Of a DNA stretch of 64,000 nt, positions 5,264 to 26,208 are shown in pieces. Every line of letters starts with the position of its first letter. Position 1 is the first letter of the stretch. A program made the position numbers and the translations under genes. Below the pieces are notes generated by a model. It was not told the DNA's origin and did not search any database. It saw nothing but the letters and a program-made list of their open reading frames with translations. Source of the DNA: Amylostereum areolatum (taxonomy: Eukaryota > Basidiomycota > Agaricomycetes > Russulales > Stereaceae); NCBI GenBank assembly GCA_012932865.1, contig SAXG01000006.1, forward strand, positions 1,323,902 through 1,387,901. Reading direction: 5' to 3'.

Positions 5264-7622
5264 TTGAGGGGGCTGACGATGTACATGGCATCTGAAGCCC
5301 AAGTTTCTGTTTCTCGCTCATCTGGTTTTGTTGCGCCTCGGTGGCCTGGTTCTCATTTGCATATGCGCATTGTTGATTCGGACTGTACTACTACGGGGGA
5401 TATCCCCATTATGACTTCTTTTACGGACTCTATCGGTACGGGCACGTGTTCCGTTGTTATTTTAGATAGTCAGGCTTCGATTTGTGAGCCTTTGGCTTTG
5501 GATACGGCATCAGTTTCGGTTTCAGTTTTGGATACGGCTTTGGATACGGACTCAGTTTTGGTCATGGACCCTGTGGAGACAGGGACAACACCGTGCGATG
5601 GAAGGGGCACGGCGCCCAAATCATGTTATATGGCAACTGGAACGGCTCAATGGACGCTTCGTCGCTTAAGGGAAGACAAACCCAAAAGTGTGATCACAAT
5701 CCTTCGCATCTGGATACACCATCGATGCCGCGACGAAGCTACTTATGAAGCTATCAAGGAGATAACTGGAATGGAAGACAAATTGGCATGCCAAGCTCTA
5801 CTAGAGCTCGCCACTCCCATGCAGTTTATACGCTCCTTGAGCGCTAAGGAACAAACGGTCATTCCCACACAACTTGTGGTAGATTCCAAGCGCATTGTCA
5901 AGGCTCTCGCACTCCTGGACAGCGATTGCACTGGCTCGTGTATCAACACAAAGTTTGTACAGGAAAACCTCATCCCCACGCGACGGACTGCTCGCCCAAT
6001 CCCAGTACGAAATGCAGATGGCACGCTCAATGCGGGAGGTCCCATCACGGAATATGTCACGCTTCGTCTAATCATTCAAGACCATGAAGAAAGCATCGAC
6101 CTCGCAGTCTCCAATCTAGGAGATACAGACCTCTTCATCGGACATGAGTGGCTGAAAAAGCACAATCCTCGCATTGACTGGAAATCAGGATCGATTGAAT
6201 TCGACCGATGCCCTACAAGCTGCTCTCATCCCCCTCCCCTTCTCAATATTGATGATGACGAAGAAGAGGAGGAAGAGCCAGTCCACATGGAAAAGGACGA
6301 GCAGCTGTTCGCTTTCGACTGGGACGGTTACAAGACAACCTACCACATCCGGACCCATGCATCAGACATTGCAATCGAGGAGCACGCTAAGAAAAAGGAA
6401 CAGACCTTCTCAGAGCGGGTCCCAACAGTGTACCATGAATTCAAAGACATCTTTGACAAAGACGACTTCGACAAGCTTCCTGAGCGACGCCCATGGGACC
6501 ACGCCATTGAACTCACTCCTAACTTCAAACCGGTCGATTGCAAAGTTTACCCCCTCACATTGGACGAGCAAAAGCAACTGGACGCCTTTTTGGAAGAGAA
6601 CCTGAGATCTGGACGGATCCAGCCGTCCAAATCACCCATGGCCTCCCCATTCTTCTTCATCAAGAAAAAAGACGGCTTGTTACGTCCTGTGCAAGACTAT
6701 CGAAAGCTCAATGAGATGACAATAAAGAACTGTTACCCGCTCCCACTCATCCAAGAGTTGGTTGATAAGCTTAAGGGAGCATGGCACTTTACCAAGCTCA
6801 ATGTCCGATGGGGGTACAACAATGTTCGGATTAAAGAAGGGGACAAATGGAAAGCTGTGTTCCGCACGAACAAAGGTCTCTACGAGCCTACAGTCATGTT
6901 CTTCGGACTCACCAACTCCCCATCTACGTTCCAAGCCATGATGAATGACCTGTTTAAAGACTTGATCCACCAAGGAGTCGTAGTCGTCTATTTGGACGAC
7001 ATCCTCATCTTCACGCATACACTAGAAGAACATTGTCGGATAGTCAAGGAGGTTCTTCGGATCCTGCGAGAAACAAACTCTATCTGAAGCCAGAAAAGTG
7101 CAAGTTTGAGAAGGCAGAAATCGAATACCTGGGCATGATTGTCGGTGGAGGAAGGGTTCGCATGGATCCAGCAAAGGTTGCAGCAATCACCAACTGGCCA
7201 GCCCCCAAAACGAAGAAACAACTTCAATCGTTTTTGGGCTTTTGCAACTTCTACTGTCGCTTTATCAAGGACTTCAGTGGCATCGCTCACCCAATGACTA
7301 AACTCACAGGGAAGACAGAATGGGTCTGGGACACCCCACAGCAGGAGGCGTTTGAGGAACTCAAGCGACATATAACATCGCAGCCGGTTCTAGCAATCCC
7401 TACAGATGAGGGACAGTTCCGTGTCGAAGCGGACTCCTCTGACTATGCCACGGGCGCGGTACTTTCGCAACAACAGGACAATGGCAAATGGCACCCAGTC
7501 ACCTTCCTCTCAAAGTCCCTCAGCGAAGCTGAGAGGAACTATGAGATTTATGACAAGGAATTACTGGCTATCATGACAGCACTAGAGGAATGGAGACAAT
7601 ACCTCATGGGGGCACGACAGGA
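5264..7622 (+). pseudogene. Chromovirus pol, first part: protease, RT and RNase H start (broken)
   Basis: The protease active-site region reads Leu-Asp-Ser-Asp-Cys-Thr near 5915-5930, where retroviral-type aspartic proteases normally have Asp-Ser-Gly, so a key Gly is replaced (GAT, 5924-5926). Reverse transcriptase follows, with the substrate-pocket and FFGLTNSP region (about 6898-6930) and the catalytic VVVYLDDILIFT motif near 6976-7012. A frameshift near 7080 separates this from the RT connection and RNase H (FRVEADSSDYATGAVL near 7419). Coding stops at 7622, where the KDZ transposon is inserted; the missing RNase H part resumes at 26209. Confidence 0.88.
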
Positions 7623-7710
7623 CCCCAGACAGTCAAGTAATAAGCAGTTAACACATAATCTACGCGTCTTTTAACCCACTCTTAACACAAACCCCACGGT
7701 AGGCCCAAGG
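7623..7710 (+). repeat. KDZ left terminal inverted repeat
   Basis: Pairs with the reverse complement of 26109-26199 over ~90 bp with scattered substitutions and small indels. The best conserved stretch is the inner end, ACAAACCCCACGGT followed by GGCCCAAGG. The outer end begins CCCCAGACAGTCAA here and CACATAAGACAGTCAA on the right, so the first 4-6 bases differ. Confidence 0.85.
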
Positions 7711-9461
7711 GGGGGTCCGGGGGCCCAAAGGGACCTATCCTCCGGGGCATAGTGAGATCATAGGGGAGGGGGTGGGGTAGGAGTACCCGCGGATTCCATA
7801 GGGGGTCCGGGAGACTGCCTATTCAACGTCCGGGGGAGGAGATAAAGAGGGTGGGGAGGGGTCCCCATCCGGGCTACATCCGAGGAGGCAGGGTCCAAGG
7901 GGGGTCCTGCACCCATCATCCGGGGCACATCCGGGAGGGGGTCCGCCACCCACCATCTGGAGAACATCTGGGAGGGGTCCACCACCCACCATCCGGAGAA
8001 CATCCGGGAGGGGTCCACCACCCATCATCCGGGGCACATCCGGGAGGGAGTGGGTTCATCCATGGGGTCAATGTTTGGGGGAAGCACATAATATATTGCT
8101 ATATATACTAGTATCCTAACTACTACACCCAGTCACCCAGGCACGCAAATCCAGATATAACTCCCGGATGGTGCCATGGGTCTGAAAGAAATGAAGATAT
8201 CAGATAAATTCGAAGATGGGATCGTGAGAGGCAGACAGTGTAGGGTATTGGATGGCAGGAGAGGAAGGTGTTCCTCTGCGTCGGATGGTGGGACCTTTGG
8301 GCCCTGCTGGTATGTGACGGAGTGGCGTCAGTTGTGGACTCGGACCCACACCCAGATGTGCACGGACCTGTTACTGATTTGGCAAGTGACGGAGTGGTGT
8401 CGGTCGCAAACTGACATCTGGCGCTCGGGCCCTGGACTTGGTGTGTGAACGGAGTGGCGTCAGTCGCGGACTCGGTCATTAGTGGGGGGGGCGGGCGTTG
8501 GGATGTGATGGAGTGGTGTCGGTTGCAGACACGGAAATGGTAGCGAAGTGGTAGTTCATGGGGCTCGGCTTTGAAAGAATGGGATAAGACGGAGGCAGAG
8601 GGGGGAGGGAATGCGAACATACATTTTTACAACTTGTACACTGTGTTCCCCAGGTCCGGATGCCACCCTCGGATGCCACCACCCTCGGATCATCGGTGCC
8701 ATAGTAAATATGATATCAGTGGGAGACAGCTAGGAAGGGTGTAGCGGGCACACCTTCGATAGCCTCCAGAACTGCTGTCCTCGTCTCCTGTGGATGGTAT
8801 AACCTGTTCATCTACCTGGATTTGGAGAGGGGGGGGTGGCCAGGTGGTGCCCTGTCGGTGACGAGTCCGTTGTGACATGGCCGCTTTCCTGGGGGATGGA
8901 GGGCTGACATTCTGACATTACGGAGCCACAAGCATTAACAATAATGATTTAAGGGGGCTCATGGGGCTAATGAGGACATAAAAAACCCAAGAACTGGGGG
9001 TGTGGTGTCAGGTGGCAAGACGAGGTCGAAGCCAAAAATGGTAATGCATTTGGACCGTGTGAATTCCGACCGGAACGACCAGTAATGTCACGTGCACTCT
9101 GCTAAGCGAAATACTCTAAGTCCCCAGTTCTTCCCCACCCTTCCACACACAGAACGACACAAGCAGAACCATTGATACAATTACTTCGGGGAATCAAGTC
9201 ATATATCTACATTACCATTACATACGCATGACAACCCTGCCACAGACACACAAAGTCATCCTCAACCTCCGAACCATCCGACACGTCCGAGACATCCGAG
9301 ACATCCGAAACATCTGAAACATCCGAAACATCCGAAGCATCTGACGCATCTGAGACACCAAAAAAACCATAACCCAAGAGATATATTACACTGTGTTAAA
9401 AGGTCAGAAGCAACCACACCTAGAACAATGGAAGACCTACACAAGAAGGTAGACTAGGAGT
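7711..9461. other. Left subterminal region of the KDZ element, no gene seen
   Basis: A G-rich stretch with several tandem repeats and no convincing coding region. A 36-bp unit (CATCCGGGAGGGGTCCACCA... type) is repeated about three and a half times at 7928-8050. A looser repeat built on GTGACGGAGTGGYGTCRGT recurs about every 65-75 bp at 8316-8550. A 9-bp array lies at 9278-9355. Long ORFs here only read through the repeats. The 3' untranslated part of the minus-strand cargo gene probably lies just left of 9462. Confidence 0.6.
9278..9355 (+). repeat. 9-bp tandem array, GACATCCGA type
   Basis: About eight imperfect copies of a 9-mer with consensus RACATCYGA. A second 9-bp array with core GGTCCGA sits near the other end of the element at 25915-25980. 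Both share the TCCGA core, which is also common through the rest of the element. Confidence 0.75.
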
Positions 9462-11963
9462 CTACTTGCTAGGCCCGGCCGCAGACTCGTCATTGCCACT
9501 CGGATGCTTGCCCTCGGATGCACGAAGCAGCGCTTCAAGCCGTGTGCTCACCTCAAGTACCTTCTCCGCATCCTTCTTGAGCTCCCCGCACTGCACCTCC
9601 AGGGCCTTGACGACGTTGAGAAGCTCCAGGTTTTGCTTGTGGATATCCAAGATGTGGGCCATGACGATGGTGTTTGCATCCTGGACCACACCCTCGAATT
9701 CGATCTGGGTGAACTCGATCTGCCCCTTGATGGAGATGCAGAACTCGTCCAGGGACTCGACCACAACACCATGCAACAAACTCCTCTTCCGGAGGGCCGC
9801 AGGTCCGACACGTTTCTTCCCTGGATCTCCAGTTTCACAGTCAGTATCCGCAACCTCCCGGTAGGAAATGGAAGACCTACCGTCGCTCCCAATGCCGAGG
9901 TTGGCCTTCTCCTTTCCTTTCGGCTCCTTGACGGTCCCCCCGCTAGACGAACCTTCACCGGCGGACGAGCTTGCCTTCGAGGCCGCAGCACCACTCGGAC
10001 CTCCCCTTGGACCTCCCTTCCCAGCATCCTTCACAACCTTCCCGTCCGGAATGTACTTCTCCAGACGTCTGGCTCGGCCCTGCTTCACCAAGGTCAGGTA
10101 CGCGGCTCTTGTGGTTGCCATCCCCTTCGAGTGGTGGCTGCACGTCGACTTTTTGTCGTAGCAGCGCAGGCACGTGTCCCCCTTGGGCTTGGCCCAGCAC
10201 GCCGCGTGTGCCTTTCCGCACTGAGTGCAATCGACCTATGAAATCACGATAAGTTATTAGTCCGTACGAAAGGGAAGGGCCACGCACCATGTTCGGCCAG
10301 TACTCGCCATCTGAGGAGTACAAGATGGAAACCTCGTCAGCCTCTGCGGCCGCCGGACCCTCCGGACCCTCCGGAACCTCACCAACTGCTCCTCCCTCGC
10401 CCTCGCCCTCACCGCGATCGCGATCCTCCCCCCCATTGCCGTCATTGCCGACCTCGTGAAGCTGATCAACCTCCCCCTCCTCCTCATCGAGATCCACATC
10501 GTCGTCGTCGACCACCATGCTAAACTCCACAGGCGCGAAAGCCGTGTCGTCAACATCCATTGCGTCGTCCGGCACTGCGTCCTGCACCACCGGCTCCTCC
10601 TGCAACACCGGCTCTTGGGAGCCAAACGAAGGGAGGTCAAAGGCGGGAAGGGTTTCTTCGTCCGAGTCTTCGTCCAGGTCTTCGTCCGCAGAGCCACCAG
10701 ACTAGAGCTCTTCACGAGTGGCTATACTCGTGAGTACCTGTATGAGTACCTGTAAGGCACATCCGTGGGTATTGCCATCCGCGGATACAGGTACTCGTGT
10801 GCCTGATACTCGTGAGAGTACAGGTATGACTTTTGAGCTCACAGGTTACCTGTGCAAGTACCTGTCAAATACCTGTCAGGTACTTTGGCAGGGTTGATCT
10901 TGATGTAATTACAGATAATAGCTGTTGGATTGATATAATCATTCTCTCTTGTAGATCCTTATGTACTGTTGTTTCTATTGTGGCCCCTTTCTCATCTATT
11001 TCCTCTCCTCCCCTCACATATATAGCTGAAAGCCTTGTGTGGTATGCTGTATCATACTCTGATACATGTTTACCTGTACTTAAATGTTACTAGCATTATC
11101 CTTGCCTTGAAGATGGAGTGTCAATATGCCTAACAGAGCTTCCAAGATGAGTCTAAGAAGGCCACTACTGCTGCTTGTATCATATTTTCTAGGAACGACA
11201 GGTACTTGTCATACCTGTGTATCCGCGAGTGGGAGTATCCGTGCCACAGGTACCTGTGTGCCTGATACTCATGAGAGTGGGAGTATAAGATCTGGAGTCA
11301 CAGGTACCTGTCTCAAGGTTGCAGGTACCTGTAAGAGTGCACTCGTGAAGAGCTCTACACCAGACACTCCAGGGAGGACATCCGCCAGAGCGTCGAGGTC
11401 TGCATCCGGCTCGGTGTCGTGCCTCGCATCTGGCATGCCCTTCTTGTAGTTGGGGTGGGGGGGTGTGAAGGACCGAGGAATAGGGTTTGCATCAGGTATG
11501 AATAAATCTAAAGAAATCAGAAGGGAAGTTAGCAGTTAGTGGTGGGGTTCATGCATAACCACGCACCTTCGGCCTCCCACCATCGGCTCCCAAGCGGAGG
11601 AACCCCGTCTGTACCTTCGACCTCTCGCATCCACACTGCCGTGTTCTTCCGCATACAGAGTTCGTCATCTTGGAGCAACAGGATCCGCGCCCAGAACGAC
11701 ATGTATCCTAGAGGCGGATCCTGACCGATCTCGGCCTCCGCGCAGTAGGCCTGCCGTGCCCATCCCTGCAGCCACACGATAGTTAGCAGTATAGCGGATA
11801 CACAGGGACTGCGACGCACAAATTCGACCGCAAAACGGTCCCACCAGACACCCCTCGGAAGACGACCAGACAGGATCTTCGCCTTGAGGTACAGCCACGC
11901 GTGATGGAGGCGGATTTTGTGTCGACGCGCGTCCAGGTAAATTTCATGCTTGACCGTGCTCAT
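9462..11963 (-). pseudogene. KDZ cargo gene 1: Zn2Cys6-cluster protein with coiled coil, MITE-disrupted
   Basis: Unrecognised protein. The start ATG is at 11961-11963. The N-terminal part has a GVWWDRF motif and a basic/aromatic helical stretch, then RWWEAEG just before an intron of about 111 bp (ending near 11445). An acidic segment follows, then after an intron near 10240-10290 a cysteine cluster spaced C-x2-C-x6-C-x8-C-x2-C-x6-C (about 10140-10235), which matches the Gal4-type Zn2Cys6 rule. A basic Gly/Ser-rich linker leads to a C-terminal heptad-like region (about 9480-9740) and the stop at 9462. A 655-bp MITE (10703-11357) interrupts the acidic exon; without it and one target repeat the frame is continuous. 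Divergent from cargo gene 2, whose layout it shares. DNA binding is inferred. Confidence 0.65.
10703..11357 (-). mobile_element. hAT-like MITE, copy 2 (655 bp), inside cargo gene 1
   Basis: Same length and terminal repeats as the copy at 2323-2977, in the opposite orientation and nearly identical. It is flanked by its own 8-bp duplication, CACCAGAC (10695-10702 and 11358-11365), which proves independent insertion. The insertion falls inside an exon of the minus-strand cargo gene. Confidence 0.92.
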
Positions 11964-12201
11964 TTTGTAGCTTGTGCGGGGTGAACAGGCGACTTTGAGC
12001 GATGGGATCGGAGGAGGTGGTGGTGGTAGGAAGGAAGAGAGACGCGGAGGCCGGGGAGGTGACACTGTGACACGACATTGCACAACGGAAAATGCCGACG
12101 GGTCACGTGACCACGCAAAGACGACACGTAATCGCACAAGTTGTGTCTCACTCTCTTTCTCTCTTCATCTTCCATCCCACTCGCAATACCCCTCATCTGA
12201 C
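11964..12201. promoter_or_regulatory. Shared promoter region of cargo genes 1 and 2
   Basis: A 238-bp spacer between two divergent start codons (ATG at 11961-11963 on minus, 12202-12204 on plus). No clear TATA box is visible. A short C/T-rich stretch (about 12150-12180) precedes the plus-strand start. The divergent layout recurs for cargo genes 4 and 5 (20849-21121), which suggests paired regulation or duplication of a gene pair. Confidence 0.4.
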
Positions 12202-13839
12202 ATGTCTTCAACTTCCGCCGCGCACTCAGGTCCTATTGACGTCGATAACTACATGTTCTCGCATGACTTCCGCAAACTGGAAGCCCGGCTCCTATGTGCT
12301 ATTGACACCTTGCAGACCACACCCGGACGGGCGAATGTGAAGTGGTGGAACCTGTTCAAACGGACATTGGTGCGTAATTCCCTTTCTCCTTTGCATTTGA
12401 AAATAACACATCGCGATCACAGCAACGTCTCATCGACACGTACGTTGTCGAGGCCCGGCAGCTCGGAGTCACCGAGTATCCGCAGAGCATCTCGTCGTTA
12501 CTTTGGTGCCAAGTCATAGTCGACAGGTGTGACAGTCGCAGTCACAACAGTGATGGTGCTGATGAGTTGACGGGACGGGACTGGCGTTCGGAGGCGGAAA
12601 AAACCGGCCATAAAAGTGGGTCCCACATCCCTCACCTACCATCCGAGGCTTCATCCGAGCCTCTGCAGGATTTTGGGTCCAAAACATCATTCAGGATGAA
12701 CCCGCATCCGAGGTCTCTCACGACTCGGATAATCTGACGTGGTAGACAAATGAGGTACGCATCACCGCTAGTATACATCGAGGTTGTCTAGCTAACCATG
12801 GTTCAGAGAAAGTGCCACAGATGCATGGCCCACAACTTCGGATGCTGGAACATGGGCAACGTCCGGTCCTGTGTCCTCTGCGTCCGGGCGGAGATGGAGT
12901 GCTCCCACAAGACCAAGATCACAACGAGGACGACCAAATCCTCATGGGTCCATCTTTGTAAGCGTGATGAGGCTGGTCTTCAGCGTCACATCCGTCCGCC
13001 GGCCCCGGTCATCCCCCCCTCGGTTGCAACCACACCCCCTCCGACCCCCCCTCCACCCCCTCAATCTGATGCCAGGCCTGCGCGTGCCCGGCCAGAACGG
13101 CAGGCCGCCAAGGTCGCCGCACAGCTCCTCGTGAAGCAGGACGAGGCCCTCAGTGATGACGACTATCCTGATGAGGCAGGATATCAGGCAGAGTATCCCT
13201 CGGACCCGGACCCGGATGAAGATTGTATGTTCGACTTTTCGTGGTTCGCCCCCCCAGACCCACTCTAACACTCTCAATTTAGCGGAGCTCAATGCTGGCA
13301 TCGACCACTTCCTCAAGATCCTGACGACGAAGACCGGACCCGAACTCACGGAGGCTATCTGTGTCAATGACGAGGCCCTTCGCACCACATTCCATCACTA
13401 CATCGGGGATGCTAAGGAGCAGCTTGCATACGAGCTTGTACTTTATTAGGCCCTCCAGACCGTCGTCTCGCAGCTCAAGGACGATATTGTCACAGCTGGG
13501 AAGGTCCTTCAGGCTGCAAAGGAGCGCCAGGATGCTATCGAGGGGCAGCTGATCCGCCGGATGGAGGCTGCGCTAACTTTGGCCGGACCCAACGACGATG
13601 AATCCGAGAGCCGCGGCCCCCAAGACAGTGACTCGACCTCGGACACCTCCGGACTCCCACCCATCGTTGCCCAGGAGGACAAGGTGAGCTGGGAGACACG
13701 TGCTGACAATGACGATGCTGCGGAGGAGGAACTGGGCGATGACGAGGACGAGGACAAGGATGAGGAGGAGGATGATAATTTTGTGCCGGACTCGCAGGAA
13801 GGACAGGTCTTCGACGAGGAGGATGAATACGACAAGTAG
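12202..13839 (+). pseudogene. KDZ cargo gene 2: Zn2Cys6-cluster protein with coiled coil (broken)
   Basis: Unrecognised protein. The first exon (from 12202) has a KWWNLF motif comparable to WWDRF of cargo gene 1. An intron starts near 12370 and the next exon begins at 12424. After further exons, a cysteine cluster C-x2-C-x6-C-x8-C-x2-C-x6-C (about 12810-12905) has exactly the Gal4-type Zn2Cys6 spacing. Pro-rich and acidic segments follow, then after an intron (about 13226-13282) a predicted coiled coil near 13420-13575 and a very acidic tail. Two in-frame stops break it: TAG at 12743-12745, just before the intron leading to the cysteine cluster, and TAG at 13447-13449 within the coiled coil. 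The same domain order as cargo gene 1 argues for common ancestry. Confidence 0.6.
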
Positions 13840-14057
13840 ATAGGTCGCATTGGGCGCTCGGTTGTATTAATCTGTGTTGGTCTTAACAAGTTGGGTGTGC
13901 TGCTTGGTGTCCGTCCAGACCTGTGCAGACTTGTGAGGTGTGATGGTCACCGGCCATCCGGGCCGCCCAGATAGCCTAGAATTTGATTCCGTTCCACGTG
14001 ATATGATGCCCGTCCGCCGATGAGCTGGCACTCTTTCCGTCGTACCATCACCACCAA

Positions 14058-17000
14058 ATGTCTGATGATGAGCAATCCGACGTACCATTTCAATCATGGG
14101 ACATTCCGGACCCCCATGGCGCCCTCCTGGATCACGAACTCCCGGACGATCAAGCGAAAGAACTTCCGCCCTTGCTCCCCGCTGAGCAAGACTGGATAAC
14201 CGATCACCTGGAAGAGTTCAAGAAGCTCACGTACACAGACAAAAGTGAATGGGTGAAACAAATGCGAGTTCAGTTCTTTGCGGAGGTTCACAATGCAAAG
14301 CTCTATGATCCTGATCATCCCCCAACAAAGAAGAAAGATGCTGCTTTCCACGAGCGAACTCAGGTACGTGGCTCGGATACTTGCGTCCGGAGCCTTCTCT
14401 CGATACCGTATCCCTAGGCATTCCGCTGGCATATCTTCGAACAAGGCCGTGTCCGCCGACCTCGAGACTATCTTGTCCATGATAAAGGCTTCAGCTTCCA
14501 CGATGTGTTCCGCAACATGTTCGAGAAACAAATTCTTGAGCGCCGTGACGAGCTGGTGAATGAGATGACGGAGGAGGACCGAGAGAGGAGCAAGAACCCA
14601 GAACTGCAGTGCTATCAACTGGCACTTTCCGAAATCCTAAAGGGGCTGATGGCGCAGGATTGTGCGGATGTGGAGAAGCACCAAGCTGAACTCAACGCCC
14701 GAGGGCTTCCGGAGGATTTGAAGAGAATGTACGTCCGAGCCGGATCCCATCCAGATGCTGGTCGTTGACGACCAGAACAGCAATGCACGCACCCTGCTTT
14801 CCAAGATCCTGTACGAGACCCAGAGGAAGGTGTGGAGACTGTGTGGCGTCCCGCTCCTCACTTCCGGGGCTATTCCAGGCAAGGTACCCGGCTCCTTCAA
14901 AGTCGAATGGTAATGGTGACATTCTTGCTTTACCAGACCAATGCTGAATTCACAGCAGTTTCGAATATGGCACGGCATGCAACTATCTCGATAGGCCGTT
15001 CACAGAGGTATTTCCCAACTGGGCATATGAGCCTCTGGATGACAACCTCCCGGAATGGGCACGTGCATGCAAAAGTATGTCGTCCGGACGCTAACAATCC
15101 CATCGCAAGCTGACTACGTGCAGTTTTTAAGCCGGACCCAAAGAAACCCGCTCAGGTCACAAGGTCCGGGAACGTCAAGAAGCCATGGCTGAAGATCCCT
15201 CACAAGGATGGCCTTCCTCAGCCCCCAGATACTCCATGGACCCCAACTAAGCCACCTGTGGGTGAGAAGCGTCTATGGTGCTGTGCGTATCTTACTGCTG
15301 AACTCCGTACGTCCTCCGACTTTTGCCTATTGATGTTGTGTTGACTTCGCCACAGGCATCGACGCGGATCGTGGCAACGCACACGTATTCTGGGGGGAGA
15401 TCCTAAAAAAGGCGGATGAAACATTTTTCGCCATGTCTCAACTTCCTGCAGAGTGGACTAGGCTGTCGGATCCGGGAAAATGGACGCACGAACAATGTGG
15501 AGAATTTCGAGCAGTGGTAGAACAAAATCTTGCCGCCTCCGGACGTGGTTTCTACTTTCATCACGTCCACAGCTCTGGAGAGATCCACCCGGCAGTTCCG
15601 GCTGCTGACCGCACCTGGTCACCGGAAGATGCAGAGAAGGAGGCAGAGGAGCGAGCAAATGAAGCGAATGAAGATGATGAAGAGGGCGAGCATCCGGCCC
15701 CGCCTCGTCAGAAGAAGAAGACAAAACATTTGAATGCAGCCTCACGCTCGAGGAATAAATCTACCCCCCATACTGCAACCGTCGAACCTCCGAGTCAGGC
15801 TTCGACCCCGAGACGGTCCAAGAAAATGACCAGAAAACGACGCACCAAAGGGAAACGGGTTAGCAAAGCCGTAGTGGAATTGTCGGATGAAGCAGAAAGC
15901 AGTGCGGCGCAGGGTCTTGCATCCGGGTCATCGGACACTCAGTATCAAAGTGCGAGATGGGAGATGATTGCTGCGGGGGAGGATTCGGAAGATGAACGTG
16001 ACAACAGCGTTCCTATGACACAGTGGCCCCACCCAGCATGGCCCGGAACTGCCCCCAACACGGTTGCACAACAACCGCAGGCACGGTTCACTTACCTCCG
16101 GACACTGTCGGACAAGGATCCTTACATCCGTCTAGTAGATCTGGTATCTCGTATTCCGGTACACCATCTCAATACCCATACCAAGACAATGTGAGCTAAC
16201 CTCTTCTCCTCACACATAGGCGGCACAGACAGACCTCAGACTCCCGAAAGACACACCAAAATGTGGGCTGTGGGATTGGCCCAAGTGATGGATTGGGTCC
16301 GAGCAGCACGAGTTTCAGCCAGCGATGATCGAGCTCCGGAACTGTGTCACAGACTTTAATGAAGATCCCCCAACATTTCTGTGGCAAGGGGAAGACAAAT
16401 CATGGGCTGGAAGAGATCGCGCGTCTGCAGCGTTATTGCTCCTTGGGCTATACGATCACGACACAGTGTTCTGGGAGGCAATGAAGACCCAGTCAGACCT
16501 GTGGAGGGAGTCTGCGCTGGCCCCCTGCAGGGTGTCCTCAAGAGGCACAATCATGACCTCTTGCATTGGCAAGCTGCCCGAGTACGCCGACGATGGCAGG
16601 GAAGGAGGCTGGTGGTGGTCGGAGGCAGTGGAGGTGATGACCCTGGCCGCACAAACTGAAATTGCAAATTTGGAAGCTGCAGGCATTCCAGTCAATGCAT
16701 CCACATCCGCCATCCGAAGGAATCCGACTCGCAAGGCCCAGCCTCTCCCTAGGTCTATAAATATTCCTCGGTCGGACGAGGAGCATCCGGATAGCCCATC
16801 TCAGAGTGGCCCACCCCGTAAGACTCCATGTTATTAATGTGGGTTCGAGCTAACAACCACACTGTCCAGGTCCACGTCCGAAGCCGCGTCCGACGGGCTC
16901 CAGGTCAATGGAAACGCCTCGTAGACGGACCGATATGGATGCACTGGCAGCCATGGACGTGGATGACTTTCCCCTGCCCACCTTTGATGGGGTTGTGATG

Positions 17001-17479
17001 TCTGACAATGACGAAGAGGATGTCCTGGACTCTTCGGACATTTTTGCGCCACTGGTCTTTTCCAAGGTGATCGACTCCGATGAGGATGAATCTCCTTCCG
17101 ATCATGCCCCACAACACCATGTTCAATTTGTATGGACTCTATCTCCCTCACTGATACACTTTGACTGATGTCGCCTATAATGTAGACTCCACCACCAGCC
17201 AATCTGGATGATCCTGAAGAGCGCCCGAAGCGCAAACAAAAACCACCATCCAGGGCAGATTAATTATATCCCCCTCCTGTGTTGACGAAGCCCACAACTT
17301 ACAAGAGGAAGCAGAGGTCGACAAAGGTAGTGATCCAGCCAAATGTTGCGGCCGGTGATGCCGGACCCTCTTCTTTACCTGTGCGACCTGAGACAGCCGA
17401 CTTACAGGATGGTGGACGGAAGCGGTTAAGCAGTGTTGTGAACACCCCCCGAAAGGGGAAGGGAAAGAGGCGAGAATGA
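14058..17479 (+). pseudogene. KDZ cargo gene 3: large hypothetical protein (broken)
   Basis: Unrecognised multi-exon gene. It starts MSDDEQSD at 14058. Exons I could connect: 14058-14363, an intron to 14416, then 14417 to about 14725, then segments with FEYGTACNYLDRPF (about 14965) and PWLKIPHKDGLPQPP (about 15183), a long exon from 15357 with an acidic run and a basic NLS-like block (RRSKKMTRKRRTKGKR, about 15811-15858), and further exons to 17479. Lesions: a frame change near 14730 that I could not explain with a canonical intron, an in-frame TGA at 16286-16288 inside an otherwise coherent Trp-rich segment, and TAA at 17261-17263. The basic and acidic blocks suggest a nuclear protein. I saw no domain I can name; it does not look like a TET/JBP dioxygenase. 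Confidence 0.55.
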
Positions 17480-17540
17480 ATATATTTTTGTTGGTTGATG
17501 TCAGATAGGGCAGAGGGCGGAGGGCGGAGCAGTGCCGGAT

Positions 17541-17901
17541 AGTAGATTGATCTGGACTGTACACCACCCCATCCCAAGTCCTATAATGGCGACACGTTCT
17601 GAATGGTTCATTGATTGCCTTTGTGCCAAGCCCGTTGAGCTTGTCCTCTAGTGAACGAGGCATTGTGATGTGGGCAGCGAGGCTGGATGTACTAGTAGAT
17701 GGGGGGGACCGAACCCCGTTTCATTTGTTCGGTCCTCCCTTCTACTGGTACATCCAGCCTCACTGCCCACATCGCAATGCCTCGTTCACTAGAGGACAAG
17801 CTCAACGGGCTTGGCACAAAGGCAATCAATGAACCATTCAGAACGTGTCGCCATCATAGGACTTGGGATGGGGTGGAGTGTACAGTACAGATCTGTCTAC
17901 T
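17541..17901. repeat. Large near-perfect palindrome (174-bp arms, 12-bp loop)
   Basis: Left arm 17541-17714 and right arm 17727-17901 are reverse complements with only scattered mismatches. The loop is 17715-17726. ORFs read from the arms are mirror images of each other and are not believed. The outer ~60-80 bp of the arms occurs a third time at about 18386-18475. No target duplication is visible outside the arms. Confidence 0.9.
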
Positions 17902-18951
17902 CAATGGGGGCGTATCCGGCGATGATGGGTTCCGGTTCTCCTTCGTCATCAGGGCCGAAGACACAGAGAACGGTGATGAATTCGAAGAATCGGATAGGCA
18001 CATAATTGCCTGACTCGGCGAGTATTTGAGTAGGGTGACGACACATTCGACTACCGCTCCTCGAACCAGTCCGAGCTCATGGGTGCCCTCGGGATGGATC
18101 AAAGCCAGTAAAATGGGTTCTAAGATTCCTACCCCTCCCTCATGTTCCCTGGCCTACCCAAACTATCTCAGCCAAATGTTCAACGAGACCATCGAAGCGC
18201 ACACGGTCGCGAGCGGCAACTCGGATGCGGACAGTACTTCCGACACGCGCTCCCACCAAGCGCAGGCGGCTCTCCAGCTCGTCCGCGACCGACCCCCCTT
18301 CGTCCGCGGTGTCCTATTCCTCCTTCGGGCACCGTCGCAACCGTCCAGCAATAACAGCAACAGCAACAAGTCGTCTATTGGTGGGCTCGGTGCCGGATAA
18401 CAGATAGATCTGTACTGTACACTCCACCCCACCCCACCTCCTATGATGGTGACATGTTCTGAATGGTAGATTGACATGTGTGAGAGTATTGAAAATGATC
18501 AAGGGACAGGGGACATACCGTATCTGTGGCCTCCGGGGTCTGTACCATGGCCCATGCTGTCTCTGTAACTTCACCGTCGGAGGCGGGGAATCTGTACGCA
18601 ATGAGTGCCTGACAAGGGCCGGAATAGGATCAATCTTCATACCTATGTGACCACCAGGGGTTACAAATGTTTTGATGGTGCACAGCATACATCACGTAGG
18701 TGGGTGGAATGGATTGAGGTGGTGAAGGGGAAGGACGGGGCACTGGGTTTGACTTGGGGATGCTCATGTCTTCTGTGCTGTTGATGAAGATGAGATGTGA
18801 CCTTTGGTCATTTTATACTTCCTCAGATGTTGCCGGATTCACACATCACATGACGAAAGCGATGCAATAGCAGACACAGTGCGACTAGGTACATTCAAGA
18901 TATTTTTAAAAAGTCCGGACCCTCCTGCAGACCCTCCGGCGACGCGCTACC
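17902..18951. other. KDZ internal region without a supported gene
   Basis: This stretch holds a third, diverged copy of the palindrome end (about 18386-18475, sharing GTACTGTACACTCCACCCCA-like sequence and the upstream TGCCGGAT). A plus-strand ORF of 124 codons (18026-18400) is Ser/Thr/Pro-rich and could be a gene remnant, but no start, intron or homology supports it. Near 18850-18950 lies the probable 3' region of the minus-strand cargo gene 4. Confidence 0.5.
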
Positions 18952-20848
18952 TCACTTCTCGCCCTGCTGAAACTTCCGCATGAGGGCCATGAACGGTGCG
19001 AGCTTCTCATCAAGCTTGCGATCGATGAGGGCGGTGATGGAGTTAGCAGTGGCGGTGTCCAAGTCACCATCCACCTGCATCGGCTCCACCACCTCCGCCG
19101 CGGCCTTCTCCTTCCCCTTCCCTGCACCAAGCGCCGCCACCAACCCTCCCTCCTCCTCTGCCGACATGGGGGCCATCTCCGGTGCGATCAGGACATGTCC
19201 TCCGCTGGACGCGGCCTTGCGGTACCACACCTTGGACGACTCGGGGTGGGGGGTCCAGACGGTGTTGTTCAGGTGCTTGAGCTGGGCGAGGGGTTCCTGC
19301 ACCAGGGTGCCGATCTCCGTCGCGATCCGGGCAGCAATGCGATCTTCGAGCATCCGCATTGCAGCTTCGAGTCCGAGGCCACCTGGATTGGCCACGTCAA
19401 CGTGAGGTAGGGTCACAAACAAAATGGAAGCTGACTTACTGTATGGGTCCGTGCCCTCCGAGGCTGATGCCTCCTGGCGCTGATGTTTCGGAGGCGGAGC
19501 CTCTTCTGCGTCTCCTGCGGGGGGTGTTGAATCTGGGCCAGAGACCTCCTCCACCTTCCTTTTCAATGGGCCCGAGTCGGTAGGGGTCAGGGGGAGAGGG
19601 CTGAAAGGTCCCGGAGGCGGTTAGGACCCCTTCTCCGCGACGTCCACATCGACTGTAGGCTTTGGGTCCGGGGCAGGGAGCCCCTCGGATGTCGGTGTCT
19701 GCACGGCAGGGGGAGCGGACACGGGGACCTTGGTGGAGGTCGCGGGGACCTTTGATGTGGTTGCGGAGGGCGACGGCGTTGGGGGTCCAGGCGGGGGTCG
19801 TGATCCCTTCTGCATGACGTCCGCAACGTCCAGAGCCTCGGGGTCCGAGGGATGCACGTCCTTAGAGGTCGTAGGAGCGGGAGGGGGGGGGGGTGTCTTC
19901 TTCGCCTGTGTCAACTTGGGCTTCAGCCTCACCACGGACGGCTTGTTTGTGGTGGAGGCTGGGGGGGGCAGGGTCTTCTGCGTCTCGGACACGGACGGGC
20001 CAGTGTCAGTGCGAGGAGGTGGTGTGGCTTGCTTCCTCCTGGACGCGGACGTGGCTGAGGCCGGCGTGGGCGTGGTCTTCTCAGACGTCGGCGGGGGAGG
20101 CTTCGCGGTAGGGGCCGTGGTGGGCACGGTCTTGTCGGACGTGGGGGGGATGCTTAGCGGCAGGGGCCACGGTCTTCTCGGACGTGGGCGGGGGCGGGGG
20201 ACGCTTCGCGGCAGGGGCCGGGGTGGGCGCGGTCTGCTCGGACGTGGAGGGGCGAGGCTTGGCAGGGGGGGGCGGATGTCTTGGTGGAGGTGGACGCGGT
20301 CGACGATGACGGGGGAGGGCGGGCGTCTACGTCACTCCTCAGGTCAGCCTTCTTCTTCTTAGACATCCAGATATCTAGAAAAATGTGAGAAAAGGAATAA
20401 GGGGAGGTAAGTGTGACGTACCTTCGACAGTCCACCATTGCTCCCGAACCTCTCCCAGCCACTTGCGCTGATATGTCTCCAGCGGTATCTGCTGAAGCGC
20501 CTCGGACCACTTCTCCTTCCCACCCGCCCTCATGGCGGCGGCCACCTCGTTAACAAATGTTGGGAACCGCTTGATACCGTGCGCAGCAAGCGTCGAGTGC
20601 ATCTCTTGTGTAAGGAACGTCTGGGAAGGTACTAGTTAGTAAGTAGGAAGTGGGAGAGTATATAGCAAACGCACCAGGATCGGGTGGAGCTTGTTCCAGA
20701 ACGCTGCTCCAGGGACGACCTTGCGCGATTGGAACTCGGCCAGAATGTTGTGCACGATCCTCTCGTTGCGCATTATCTCCACGGAGAAGATGAACACGTC
20801 GGAATCGATGTCGACGTTGGTGGCGGCGGCGGTGGCAGCAGGGGGCAT
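18952..20848 (-). pseudogene. KDZ cargo gene 4: Pro-rich protein related to cargo genes 1 and 2 (broken)
   Basis: Starts MPPAATAAATN at 20848. The N-terminal exons carry an AAFWNKL motif and end QWWTVEG just before an intron (near 20420), closely like the RWWEAEG-intron junction of cargo gene 1. Next comes a long Pro/Thr/Lys-rich region (about 20330-19630) with a repeated TSEKT...PAPAAK-like unit. It needs two frame changes, near 20270 and 20150, both at G/C homopolymers. An in-frame TAA (19621-19623) separates it from a continuous C-terminal part (19566-18952) with a basic start, one intron near 19380-19440, and amphipathic helices near the end. No cysteine cluster was seen. Divergent from cargo gene 5. 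Function unknown; nuclear is a guess from basic blocks. Confidence 0.5.
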
Positions 20849-21121
20849 GATGGTGGGCTAGAGCGCGAGTGAAGTCGAGAGGGGAGACGGTCAGACGGTC
20901 GGACGGTGAGGTAAGAGGAGAATAAAAGAGAAGAGAACAAAGTTGAACATCGGCGCGACAGATGACTAATACATTCGCACGATCATGCGGTGGACACGTC
21001 ACCAATGTTCACAAGTCGTTTGTTTCTCCTGGACATCGACTGCCATCACTAGGTAAGTGTTGCATTGTACTACCGGGCTTGATCTGTTGATGACTGCGTA
21101 TCAGGTCTATCATCCATTACC

Positions 21122-21601
21122 ATGCCAGAACCGTTCAAGCAGGCACCTCTCTCGACGCCTTTCAGTACGCTCGCGCAGTATGACACCGATGAGGACGGTG
21201 ATCGTCAGAGGGAACATCAGTCTGAGGAGCAATGTAAGGTTCCATTCTTCACTTTTTATTTGTCGTTGAATGACATTGGTGATCAAGCTGAGGATATCTA
21301 ACACCATCCGGCGACATCCATGGGGGTAGCCGGGGAGCGGTCAACGTCCCACCCTCCGAGCCCTCTCACGGACCCTGTAGTTTCCGACAGTGAGGATGAC
21401 GAGGCCATTTCTCCAACGCTGCCAAGTCTGCAAGATGGATTACCACCTTGTGTAGTTTACCCACGGAGAAAATCAAAGTCGCCTGTCGAGCCGGACCCCA
21501 AAGGAAGCAACAAGCGGCTCCGCACCAGTCCGGATGGAAAGGGCAAGAAGTGTGCACGGTCGGGTGAGGACCTTAGTCGATGGTCAATTGCTCATGGCTG
21601 A
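21122..21601 (+). CDS. KDZ cargo gene 5: small hypothetical protein
   Basis: A short two-exon gene. Exon 1 starts MPEPFKQAPL at 21122 and ends near 21235 at a GTAAG donor. The second exon (from about 21310) encodes a Ser/Pro-rich acidic segment and a basic C-terminus (KGSNKRLRTSP..KGKK), with the stop at 21599-21601. No domain is recognised. It lies head to head with cargo gene 4 (273-bp spacer) and tail to tail with the transposase. It is the only cargo gene in which I see no lesion, but it is short and the intron acceptor is uncertain. Confidence 0.4.
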
Positions 21602-21689
21602 ATTGTGGATACTCTAGACCTGTCATCCGGGCAAGGAGAGGAATCAAACGAGTAGTATACATGTTTTCGAGGGGGTTGTAAAAATTGAA

Positions 21690-24600
21690 TTAGACTGCAA
21701 CATTGTATTTCCAAAAAACCTCCTCGGCTTCCTGCCTCAGTGTGCTCCAGGTCTCTATCTGTCGTGAAGCATAGCATGATGCTCCTATGTCCTTACGGGC
21801 TAGGTGTGTGTTTCGGATGTCTGACCATTCGGATACCTTTCTGTTGTGGAACCGGAGCGTGTTCCCCATCTGAGCACGGACACGTCCAATCTGTTCTTTC
21901 GTCCGGTCTAGGTTTGCCTTCGCGCGAAGAAGATTGACCCGAAGGACTGTACAAGAGTGAGCAGGTATCAGAGGGGGTTAGGATGACAACTACTTACACT
22001 CATCCTTCCAGGTTGGATTCGAAGAGTCTGACTCCAACGGGCGATCCATTGTCCAAAACCACGCGAGTTGAGCGAGGACGGTGTGTGGGTTGGACGGGTC
22101 AATAATAGTGGTGCTTGCTTTGAGGTCTTGTTTGGTGAGGGGTTTGAAACGGTCAAGGACAGTCGGATCAGTGTGAAGTCGGCTCAGTGCTTTCCGAGAG
22201 TCCATGTAGACTTGGACATGCTGCCGAAGGGTGCCGAGGGTCCCCATGACGGCCGAATATGCACGGGTCACCTGGCGTTGAGTGGACGCTGGCCGGACCC
22301 CCGTCCGGTACTGAAACGAGAGAATTCCGACACTGTTACAGATCTCCCCAAGGGCATCATTGGCGACACCGATCCACAGCTGAGTCTCCTCCTCCATGAC
22401 AGGGTGGTTGGTTTCGCTGCCTCGCCATGTTTCAGACATGGAGGATGGAAGCAGGATTGGTAGGCACTCCGCTGGAATTTGAGTTGACATTTTCTTTGGA
22501 GGGGAATCTGCAACAGGAAGGAGTTCGATCTCGCCAACCTCGTCCAACTGGGGAATAAAGTCTGAAGCGGGTCGGACCCCGGACCATCCGAGCTGCTTCC
22601 GTACAGCACCGTTGAAGGACATGATTTGTTGCTTCAATTTTGACTGGCGTCCGGCAATTGTCAATGAGTCCTGACTCGGCCGCCTCTTTTCTGCCTGTAG
22701 AGATAGTCTATAGAGAATGTTACAGTGGGATGAGAAGGCAGGTGGGGAAACTCACTGTGCCCCCCGGAGGCGGATTCCACTTGCCAGCCATTTCACGCGG
22801 ACCCCTCCCCCGAGAGCCTTTTCCTTCTCTATTAATCGCATCTGTAGCTCCTTCTTCCCCGGAGCTAGGACTTGGTGAGTATGGAGATGATATGGATGGG
22901 ATATTGTCGTACCAAGCTCAAGGCGGACATCGAAAATGGTCATTTTCTCACAATCTGTCTCTCGACAGTTGAGTGCCTCGTCCATCTCGGACAGCCACCC
23001 TTCCACCTGTTCTTCTGTCGCTTGGGCTTTGAGCTCCTTATAATACTTGTCTCGGTCTGGGAGGTCGGTCTGGGCTTTGCAGAGGCGGCGGTCCAACATT
23101 GCGGCTGGATAGAAATTAAGTAGATTCCGGATGTGAGGGTTGTGGACGCACGCATTCCAATGGCCTTCCTCCAGTTTGTGTTAAGTATATGCCAGTTGAG
23201 ATGCTCTTCACGAGCTGCGGGTGTCATGGCCTGAGCATTTTGGGAGGCGGCGTTGAGGATCGACCAAAGCATTTCCACGATCTCACCATTGATGTATCCT
23301 ACCCCAGGGATATAAACTGGTGCAAACTTGGCAAAGCAGTCATCCACATGTCCGTGGATGTGAAAGACGCCGACACCCTGTTTTATCTTGAGGCCCGGAG
23401 GGAGTTTGAGATACATGCTGCCATCGACTCGGCGCCGGAGGTGGATTCCGTACTTGCACATAATGTCGTACAATACCATAACTTCTTCAATATCTCCGAG
23501 ACTGTGCTGGAGTGCACTGCACAATGCATAATCAACATTCGCCTGCCTAGAGCGGGGTACATAGTCAGTGATACGCATGCAGGGAGGATATGGATGGTGA
23601 CGGACTTTTCTCCCTTCTGCAAGTTGACGGTTCCAACAGGGAGCCAGCATCCGTGGTCTGTGCATGCCACAGAGACTATACCAGACACATCCCTTCCTTT
23701 GTGTTCGGAGTCCGCCTGCAACACTGCACGGTGGTTGACACACTTCACTCTGGTGGTCTGAAAATTCATAAGTTCAACATTTACATTACGAAGGACAAGA
23801 TATCCAGACCTTGGTCTCCACCGCATTTGCAAGATGGGTTTGGTAACGCGCTTCCGGGACAAAATACCCAGTTCCATGACCCAATCGGACTTCCTTTTTC
23901 TGCGGGGTTGCGGGCGCGAGATGTTGTGCGCTGTAGTTTCCATCTAGGACGGCAGTGGCAATGTACTTGTACCTAGATCAACAGTACTTCAGTACTTGCA
24001 AGGGGATGTGGGAAGCTGACGCACTTATCCGGATCGTCCTTCCAATTCACCTCCAGATTGACGCCAGGTCGAGGACAGGTTATGCATCCAAGTGTCAGCT
24101 GTCCTGGGGCCAGTGTAGAGGAGTCGGATGCGTGAAATCGTTTCAGCAAGGTTAAATAGTGATATTGTCGATTTGCTCGGCGGAGTTCCTGGTAGTGAGT
24201 CTGGATCGTTGTTATGGGTCCGAATGGTATCCGAAGTGGAATAGGGACTTACCGGTGTTTTCCCAGGAGACCTTCGATGTGTTTTTACTTTCACCTGTTA
24301 CTGTTGAAAATACAAGCTGAGTGTTGTATGAGAGATGATGTTCTGGTCACTAGCATCATCCAATGCCGCAAATGTGAATGCGGACTTGGGGGTCTTGATG
24401 CTGGCTGGATACAATCCCAGTTTAAGCAACTGAAGGTCATCGGCAGCTGCTCCTTCGCATTTGCAGAAGTGGACCCCTCCCTATGCGGTGAGCACCAGTT
24501 GAATGGACAACCACCATGATCCTGTTTGTGAATGGATCCACGAAGACGGGTTGATCGGATGCGGGAGATGGCAGTTTCAGAATGTCGTCACTTTGTAGTG

Positions 24601-25588
24601 CGATGGGTGTGGTTGGGGTGGGTGTGGTTGGGGTGGATGGGACGGGGGTGGAAGGTCGTGATGATGTAGGAGTACTGAGGTTTGTTGTGGGATGGGATGG
24701 GGTGGGGGGGGACTCCGGTGGTGGGGTTGGCTCCGGTGTCGGTATCGTAAGACCAACAGGATTGTCTGAAGGGGTGGAGATAGACTCTGGTGGGGGGGTT
24801 GGCTCCGGTGTCTGCATCGTAGGATCAGGATAATGGAGGGGATCATTAAGAGGAGGTGTCGGATGTGTAGGGGGAGGGGTCGGATAGACGGATCAATAAG
24901 TCGGATGTTTAGACTGGAGGGAGGACACCTCAGATGGGATACTAGGACTGGACGGACATGGCTGTCCTCCATGTCCAAGGCAAACTACCAGACCGACGTC
25001 ATGTAGCCAAGCATCAGTGAACCTTTCTCCTGTCCACCGTTGCACACGATGGAAAGGATGACGGAGGTGGGCCTTCCGAAGGCACTCTGCGCAAACATTG
25101 GGACAGCCGAAGCACTGCTTGCACCGCCAGTTACCATCTTCGACACCACAGTCGATACACTTGACTGACATTGGAGCCTCGCGACTATACATCACGGAGG
25201 TATACTGGGAAATTCTTGGCTTCTACTCCTTCATAAACGCATTCTGAGACTGGCCGACGGATGCTGTGAGTTCCTCTTGGGGGACGAAAAGAATGTACGG
25301 ACTCACCTTGCCAGCTATGTGCCTGGTTGGATGTGGAAGAACTGGAGGGTCCACGAATCGTAGGTAATCGGTGTCATCATCTTGTGGGAAGTCGTTTGGA
25401 GGGGAATCATCATCATCCAGGGCCTGGCTTTGGTTGTGTTCCAGTCTTTGCTTGGTTAGTGGGCTGAGTGCTCGGCTCTTGAATGCCTCTCCCATTGGTC
25501 CTGCTTGAAATTTGACTTTCCCATACCAATTCCGCCTGGCCTTGTGCTGGGTGACTCTGGACTCCGAGTACACAGTTTTCCTGCCCAT
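21690..25588 (-). pseudogene. KDZ transposase with CxC2-type cysteine cluster (broken N-terminal half)
   Basis: Starts MGRKTVYSESR at 25588. Exon 2 (about 25230-24897) holds the KDZ-associated CxC2 cysteine cluster (C-x2-C...WRC-x2-C...C-x2-C...H..PFH near 25165-25060, then LGH.G..CP). A Pro/Thr-rich linker follows. The catalytic part lies at about 23960-23170: DGNYSAQH, YDIMCKYG, then VFHIHGHVDDC and YINGEIVEMLW, the typical KDZ motif series with acidic catalytic residues. The C-terminal helical region (23100-21690) is open apart from normal introns. Lesions lie only in the N-terminal half: TGA at 24893-24895, a ~4-bp insertion shifting frame near 24471-24488 (just before FCKCEG), and TAA at 24298-24300. 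It would act as the DNA transposase for this element; as read it cannot make full-length protein. Confidence 0.85.
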
Positions 25589-26108
25589 CGGTGTGAAGGA
25601 GAATGGATATTGGTGTCTAAGAGGTTTGGATTGAGATGTATGAACAGTGGTCGTTGACAGGTATGGTGGATGGGAAGAGACAGATAGGGCAGTGGGGGGA
25701 GGTTATCAGATCAAAGGTGGACCACGTGAAATGGGTACCTTTTCAACATAATCCATTCCAAGTGATTGCCTCGGAGGGGTGGGATTCATGTCAAGGAACA
25801 CTGTAGCTTATCATTATGATTCTCATGTAGGACTGAGGCTACAGGGTGTGTACTAAAGTGCTTGGAGAGGTTGAGTATCCAAGACGTAATATTTAGAGAA
25901 TGGGTGTGAGTCCAATGGGTCCGGTGGGTCTGGTGGGTCCGATGGGTCCGATGGGTCCGGCGGGTCCGGCGGGTCCGAACCTGCTTCGAGGGTCCTGGAG
26001 AGTCCAGAAGGGTCCGAACACTGTTTTACGGTCCTGGTGGGCCCAGGGAACTATCCTGGCACATCAGCATAGGGGGACCCCACATGGGCCCATGTGTTGC
26101 ATATGGCA
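25589..26108. other. Right subterminal region of the KDZ element, with 9-bp array
   Basis: The upstream region of the minus-strand transposase, so it probably holds its promoter. At 25915-25980 lies a 9-bp tandem array (about seven copies of a GGGTCCGRT unit) close to the right terminal repeat. No coding sequence is supported; the ORF through the array encodes only Gly/Pro repeats. Confidence 0.6.
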
Positions 26109-26199
26109 CCTTGGGCCCACCGTGGGGTTTGTGTTGAGGGAGGGATAAAAGACTCATGGATTATGTGTTGACAACAGCACTAATTGACTGTCTTATGTG
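26109..26199 (-). repeat. KDZ right terminal inverted repeat
   Basis: The reverse complement matches 7623-7710 over ~90 bp with some substitutions. The inner end CCTTGGGCCCACCGTGGGGT is best conserved. The right copy of the target duplication starts at 26200. Confidence 0.85.
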
Positions 26200-26208
26200 A
26201 CGACAGGA

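Follow-up and report, generated by a model that had tools for sequence, protein, structure and literature searches.

An 18.6-kb transposon of the KDZ superfamily lies within a 64,000-nt stretch of the Amylostereum areolatum genome (contig SAXG01000006.1, positions 1,323,902 to 1,387,901; hereafter termed the window). Its features indicate, with a probability of roughly 0.83, that it is a cut-and-paste element of a lineage next to, and probably within, Kyakuja, and that it encodes five dedicated accessory proteins (termed g1 to g5) in addition to its own CxC2-KDZ transposase. An earlier note, made from the letters of the window, had identified the transposon and proposed that it mobilizes at least five non-transposase genes as cargo, comparable in concept to that of Starship elements. 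The presence of these genes inside the element is upheld by our analysis, but the cargo interpretation is not: the gene set is constant in the copies compared, is collinear in three families and, in the pieces tested, bears the marks of purifying selection. KDZ itself was reportedly defined by Iyer et al. 2014 (PNAS).

The existence of a KDZ-superfamily transposon with precise ends is confirmed by its domains, its target-site duplications (TSDs) and the corresponding empty sites. The KDZ domain (PF18758) is matched by a window exon with an E value of 1.7e-26 and by the open copy on contig C53 with an E value of 2.3e-45. The CxC2 domain (PF18803) is matched on C53 (E = 1.2e-21) and is not detected in the broken pieces of the window transposase, whose first exon is interrupted by stops and falls into several frames; the C53 exons read open. 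The inverted repeats of ~90 bp described previously are borne out by an alignment of the outer 95 bases of each end, in which 74 of 98 columns are identical, and a repeat search of the window returned an inverted-repeat core of 64 nt at 86% identity. End sequences agree among eight left-end loci and seven right-end loci, the exceptions being one left end (GACCCT) and one right end (GACTATC). In the loci read, left ends begin GACC and right ends finish ATGTG.

An exact 7-mer flanks both ends in nine same-contig pairs (C139, which is the window copy, C53, C115, C13, C34, C98, C172, C128 and C126), and these pairs carry nine different duplications. Such agreement argues that the TSD is not due to chance. 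The duplication is therefore 7 bp in length rather than the 8-9 bp first described; the apparent 9-bp repeat arises because left ends start GACC and the flank downstream of the window copy happens to begin GA. Since GA belongs to the element, its first base is 7621 and not 7622, whereas the right end at 26199 stands as originally placed. The insertion target is a gypsy element, and the joined flanks of the window copy correspond to an uninterrupted site in three gypsy paralogues (C130, C1 and C66), which are paralogues of the same assembly and not alleles of other strains. Removal of the element thus restores the gypsy reading frame, in agreement with the earlier claim.

Other end pairs are less regular. 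In two further same-contig pairs, C1 (inverted) and C114, the two TSD copies show a single-base difference. On both C98 (same TSD) and C1 (nearly the same TSD), left and right ends are inverted on one contig, as after an internal inversion. The TSDs of the C150 pair match, but its ends are 87 kb apart in an odd geometry. In C140 and C56b, which belong to a second family described below, the TSDs are unmatched on their own contigs and exactly swapped between the two elements, a pattern that a reciprocal crossover, or an assembly join within the repeat, would leave. End pairs also match across contigs in C66/C130, C138/C146 and C4/C56a.

Further copies were found in the 57.1-Mb genome assembly (182 contigs). 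The left 229 bases of the element have 25 genome matches and the right 240 bases have 35, counts that include cross-matches between left and right ends and, for the right end, matches to the second family. C53 carries a complete copy of 18,113 bp whose layout matches that of the window copy, at 95.9-97.8% identity, and a copy on C4 shares this layout up to window position 25491, with no right end found. The earlier note had suggested a search for additional copies and had considered that the extra genes might prove to lie outside the repeats; additional copies do exist, sharing both the ends and the internal genes, and the genes lie inside the terminal repeats.

Copies of subfamily A differ from each other by 2-10%. 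Subfamily B, represented by C115 and C13 (20.1 and 20.0 kb, 98.1% identical to each other), shares roughly 65-93% identity with subfamily A and differs from it by about a third over much of its length. This divergence is unevenly distributed. Over most of the length, identity between A and B is 0.57-0.82, but it rises to 0.88-0.89 in the 3' part of g3, to ~0.94 in g4 and to 0.95-0.99 over the core of the transposase. Synonymous divergence (dS) shows the same unevenness: the D, core and C exons of the transposase have values of 0.01-0.06 and the g4 piece has 0.16, whereas values of 0.37-1.24 apply to the remaining in-frame pieces. This mosaic pattern suggests that sequences have been exchanged recently between the co-resident subfamilies. 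The conserved YDIMC motif of the transposase reads YNIMC in C115 and YKIMC in C118. Because the replaced Asp is presumably catalytic, these two copies may be inactive.

Comparisons among families indicate that g1 to g5 are integral to the element. The order from left to right is g1 (-), g2 (+), g3 (+), g4 (-), g5 (+) and transposase (-), and the same order and strands occur in the three KDZ families examined, of which family 2 was examined closely from one copy (C140:196584-215336, 18,753 bp) and family 3 likewise from one copy (C118). Relative to the window's family, the identity of transposase pieces is 61-69% for family 2 and 52-74% for family 3. The corresponding values are 40-65% and 34-49% for g3 pieces and 45-51% and 34-36% for g2 pieces; g1 is 27-30% identical in family 2 and 40% identical over 60 residues in family 3. 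For g4 and g5, pieces were selected by eye among the reading frames located where each gene was expected, and were compared with shuffled sequences. Pairs of g4 pieces have scores of 124-196, compared with means of 25-27 after shuffling, and in none of the three pairs did any of 1,000 shuffles reach the real score; pairs of g5 pieces score 65-98 against 32-36 (reached by 0, 1 and 0 of 1,000 shuffles). Family 2 (C140, C56, C114, C128 and C172) yields two g1 and two g2 matches per element, indicating duplication of its cysteine-cluster genes.

Two of these genes share a cysteine cluster of the form C-x2-C-x6/7-C-W-...-C-x2-C-x6-C. A strict version of the pattern occurs at one site in each of five elements (in g2 of the window, C53 and C118 and in g1 of C115 and C140) and is absent from 200 base shuffles of the window element. 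The N-terminal domains of g2 and g4 are also homologous, with scores of 50-66 against shuffled means near 25 that none of 1,000 shuffles reached. Shuffles gave no support for a similar relationship between the N-terminal part of g1 and that of g2 or g4.

The association of these genes extends across the genome. A g3 exon query has 31 genome matches, extending down to 36% identity over 161 residues, and the g1 and g2 queries have 51 and 45. To the test of gene order we admitted 29 of the 31 g3 matches (two are second pieces of a gene), 34 of the 51 g1 matches (g2 cross-matches, second pieces and weak matches were dropped) and 88 of 155 KDZ matches (second exons and weak matches were dropped). 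Within 30 kb, 25 of the 29 g3 matches have an opposite-strand KDZ gene downstream, 19 have an opposite-strand g1 upstream and 18 have both; one locus counted in the 25 and the 18 (C150:39647) neighbors a KDZ gene outside the clade defined below. Within 15 kb, these numbers are 21, 18 and 14. Measured against all 107 listed KDZ positions, 20 of the 29 lie within 12 kb and 27 within 30 kb, and at most 4.5% of the genome falls within 12 kb of such a position.

Pieces of g1 to g4 and of the transposase are under purifying selection. Between subfamilies A and B, the ratio of nonsynonymous to synonymous divergence (dN/dS) is 0.20 for g3, 0.26 for the N part of the transposase, 0.12 for the g1 cysteine part, 0.28 for g2 and 0.32 for the g4 C part. 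Values from two weaker single pieces are 0.46 (g1 N part) and 0.45 (g2 cysteine part). In the two other frames, which served as controls, the ratio is 1.25-2.36 and stops appear in every case, whereas the true frames contain none in A and 0-1 in B.

The transposases of module-bearing elements also share a common descent. In a tree of KDZ core sequences, from which six rows had been dropped beforehand as partial, in the wrong frame or near-duplicate, they form one clade with support of 100/95. This clade consists of eight transposases with adjoining module genes, C52 (a core of subfamily B located at the end of a contig, where no g3 match was seen) and three near-copies of family 3 for which no g3 neighbor of their own was detected. 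With C52 scored as module-bearing and the three near-copies scored as not, the module label requires 3 changes on the tree compared with 8.3 for shuffled labels, and none of 500 shuffles was as low.

The sister branch holds eight KDZ rows of this genome, among which C75, C128 and C137 have a match to TET/JBP within 12 kb; a fourth KDZ gene with such a neighbor, C164, attaches beside both branches without resolution. The TET/JBP profile (PF12851) has 27 matches in the genome (for example on C14, C164, C128 and C75), 13 of them over the family cut-off. A listed KDZ match outside the module clade is found within 12 kb of 21 of the 27, whereas none of the 27 is that close to any of the 30 listed KDZ positions inside it, and the presence of a TET/JBP gene in the element was accordingly rejected. 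The related profile PF20515 gave no match, but its control was silent too. The module lineage resembles Kyakuja in how it operates and probably belongs with it, a placement made from a tree that holds no named Kyakuja reference sequence. These data are best read as a KDZ lineage that resembles Kyakuja, lacks TET/JBP and has a dedicated accessory module passed on by vertical inheritance.

The alternative that survives best, though we consider it improbable, is that g1 to g5 derive from a second mobile element that fused long ago with a KDZ transposon and has since been inherited with it as a unit. The transposase core and the module do differ in history in places, as the A/B identities above illustrate, and for 4 of the 29 g3 matches no KDZ gene on the opposite strand is listed in the 30 kb downstream. 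However, no further long inverted pair flanking the module appears in the general repeat listing of the window, for which no dedicated search was made, and the module families placed on the tree all have KDZ genes of a single clade.

Less likely still is a Starship-like carrier whose genes were picked up from the host and moved with variable content. The large size of the element and the several non-transposase genes between its exact ends are what such a carrier would exhibit, but the content is the same across the compared copies and diverged families. Moreover, no host domain occurs in the scanned pieces: pieces of g1 to g4 and the g5-type frame of C140 have no Pfam domain above cut-off. 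The tyrosine recombinase profile DUF3435 likewise has no match in the element, its five genome matches (C177, C104, C150, C124 and C1) all being on contigs other than that of the window. Because the gene set is collinear and, in the pieces tested and scanned, under purifying selection and free of recognizable host domains, we conclude from these comparisons that g1 to g5 are most plausibly the element's own old gene set and not captured cargo. The notion that haplotype or assembly duplication of a mere few elements accounts for the copies, so that the family is overstated, can be set aside as barely credible: right-end flanks are identical in C142/C96b and C150b/C96a and several TSDs match crosswise between contigs, but the nine same-contig pairs with their nine TSDs and the divergence within A and between A and B are at odds with it.

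Several observations weigh against our interpretation of the element as a Kyakuja-like transposon with its own gene module. The tree was built from ~120 residues in 40 sequences, and only four KDZ genes in it neighbor TET/JBP, three of them in the sister branch. For the D, core and C exons of the transposase, dN/dS is 0.60, 0.62 and 0.99, values that say little because the corresponding dS is only 0.06, 0.01 and 0.03, and the selection test covered g1 to g4 and the transposase. Exon limits were read by eye. In both subfamilies, g3 changes frame without an evident intron at ~6440-6480 of the C53 element (window ~14720-14760), reflecting either an unusual splice or decay common to both. Furthermore, no module protein has a recognized domain or fold. 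For g3, a search of solved structures with its alignment gave a best E value of 0.93 and the structure model has a mean predicted local distance difference test score (pLDDT) of 35.9. The known spread is also narrow, since two database searches with g3, each scoring ~8,000 candidates, found only three proteins, all from Amylostereum chailletii.

One of these relatives, P0001, is 88% identical to the C53 g3 model. In another A. chailletii protein, P0002, sequences of g2 type and g3 type are joined within a single gene model; the adjacency of g2 and g3 is thus kept in that species too. No Pfam domain above cut-off occurs in P0001, P0002 or P0016, and P0002 has one sub-threshold match to FRQ. The best database relatives found for the transposase are CxC2-KDZ proteins of Lactarius and Dentipellis (29-32% identity).

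Coordinates of the element and its features are collected in Table 1. The g1 gene of the window is broken by a nested insert resembling a miniature inverted-repeat transposable element (MITE), which is absent from C53 and C4. A 73-nt arm related to the palindrome between g3 and g4 is located at 18402-18474.

Table 1. Features of the KDZ element, in window coordinates.
Feature	Position	Strand	Description
Whole KDZ element	7621..26199	+	18,579 bp, 5'-GACCCCAGACAGTC...GACTGTCTTATGTG-3'; ends common to other loci
Left TSD copy	7614..7620	.	ACGACAG, 7 bp; flank comparison
Right TSD copy	26200..26206	.	ACGACAG, 7 bp; flank comparison
Left terminal inverted repeat	7621..7715	+	imperfect, ~95 bp; outer 6 bp mostly unpaired
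Right terminal inverted repeat	26105..26199	-	repeat alignment
g1	9459..11963	-	acidic; Cys cluster CxxC...CW...CxxC...CSH and C-terminal tail; start codon and exon joining inferred
Nested MITE-like insert	10703..11357	.	655 bp; 18-bp perfect ends, 8-bp duplication CACCAGAC
g2	12202..13839	+	g1-type Cys cluster preceded by an N-terminal domain related to its g4 counterpart; diverged from g1
g3	14058..17479	+	large multi-exon protein, ~800-850 aa; homologue P0001 in Amylostereum chailletii
Palindrome between g3 and g4	17561..17879	.	near-perfect, 146-nt arms, 95% complementary
g4	18952..20848	-	N-terminal domain common to g2, Pro-rich middle, conserved C-terminal part
g5	21122..21601	+	small protein rich in Ser and Pro; putative start and exon boundaries
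Transposase	21690..25588	-	CxC2 Cys cluster and KDZ catalytic core; broken here, open in C53

These features are consistent with a mechanism in which a transposase with an RNase H fold would bind the ~95-bp ends and insert the element with a 7-bp stagger. The cysteine-cluster proteins g1 and g2, the large g3 protein, g4 and g5 might serve as DNA-binding partners of the transposase or as regulators of transposition. Alternatively, g1 to g5 might act as anti-silencing factors, taking the place of the TET/JBP protein of related KDZ elements. The defective window copy could presumably move only with proteins supplied by other copies. More tentatively, and with odds somewhat against it, these elements might constitute a distinct KDZ subclass in which a deep, co-inherited module of five proteins replaces TET/JBP for escaping silencing or for assembling a transposition complex, forming a virus-like accessory set unrelated to Pfam families.

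With five conserved genes in addition to its transposase, the element is unusual among eukaryotic DNA transposons. The same genome also contains related KDZ elements beside TET/JBP genes, so two accessory strategies occur together and one can ask whether the extra proteins aid jumping or prevent silencing. There is also a caution for claims of cargo: copies and diverged relatives should be compared before genes between exact ends are given that name.

Among known systems, Starships have a tyrosine recombinase captain (DUF3435) and variable cargo. The present element resembles these Pezizomycotina elements in being a large fungal element with several genes; it differs in its KDZ transposase and constant gene set. 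In the literature searched, parts of which were accessible and most subscription journals of which fall outside the coverage, no description of the five-gene module in KDZ elements was found. Nor is such a module described in the accessible portions of the report on KDZ1-KDZ3 of Cryptococcus neoformans (PMC12810828). According to these portions, KDZ1-KDZ3 are mobile elements shown to move, with a length of ~9-11 kb, inverted repeats of 139-241 bp, CxC1 and TSDs of 4-8 bp. They are thus similar to the present element as large mobile KDZ elements with inverted repeats, and differ in being smaller and in having CxC1 rather than CxC2. Zisupton shares membership in the KDZ superfamily and terminal inverted repeats, but its TSD is 8 bp (Kojima 2025, PMC12730594, in the part available) compared with 7 bp here.

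The closest likeness is to the TET-positive Kyakuja elements of Agaricomycotina. The available part of Kojima 2025 (PMC12730594) assigns the TET-carrying elements detected in Russulales to Kyakuja and reports that two Kyakuja families (from Laccaria) make 7-bp TSDs, and that TET-positive Kyakuja termini are 5'-CA..TG-3' with no terminal inverted repeats. By this account, the present element differs in its left end, which is GA and not CA, in its imperfect inverted repeats of ~95 bp, and in carrying five other conserved genes and no TET/JBP. In common with TET-positive Kyakuja it has a KDZ transposase, a 7-bp TSD, a terminal ...TG-3' and extra gene content inside the element, and its sister branch in this same genome includes KDZ genes that lie beside TET/JBP.

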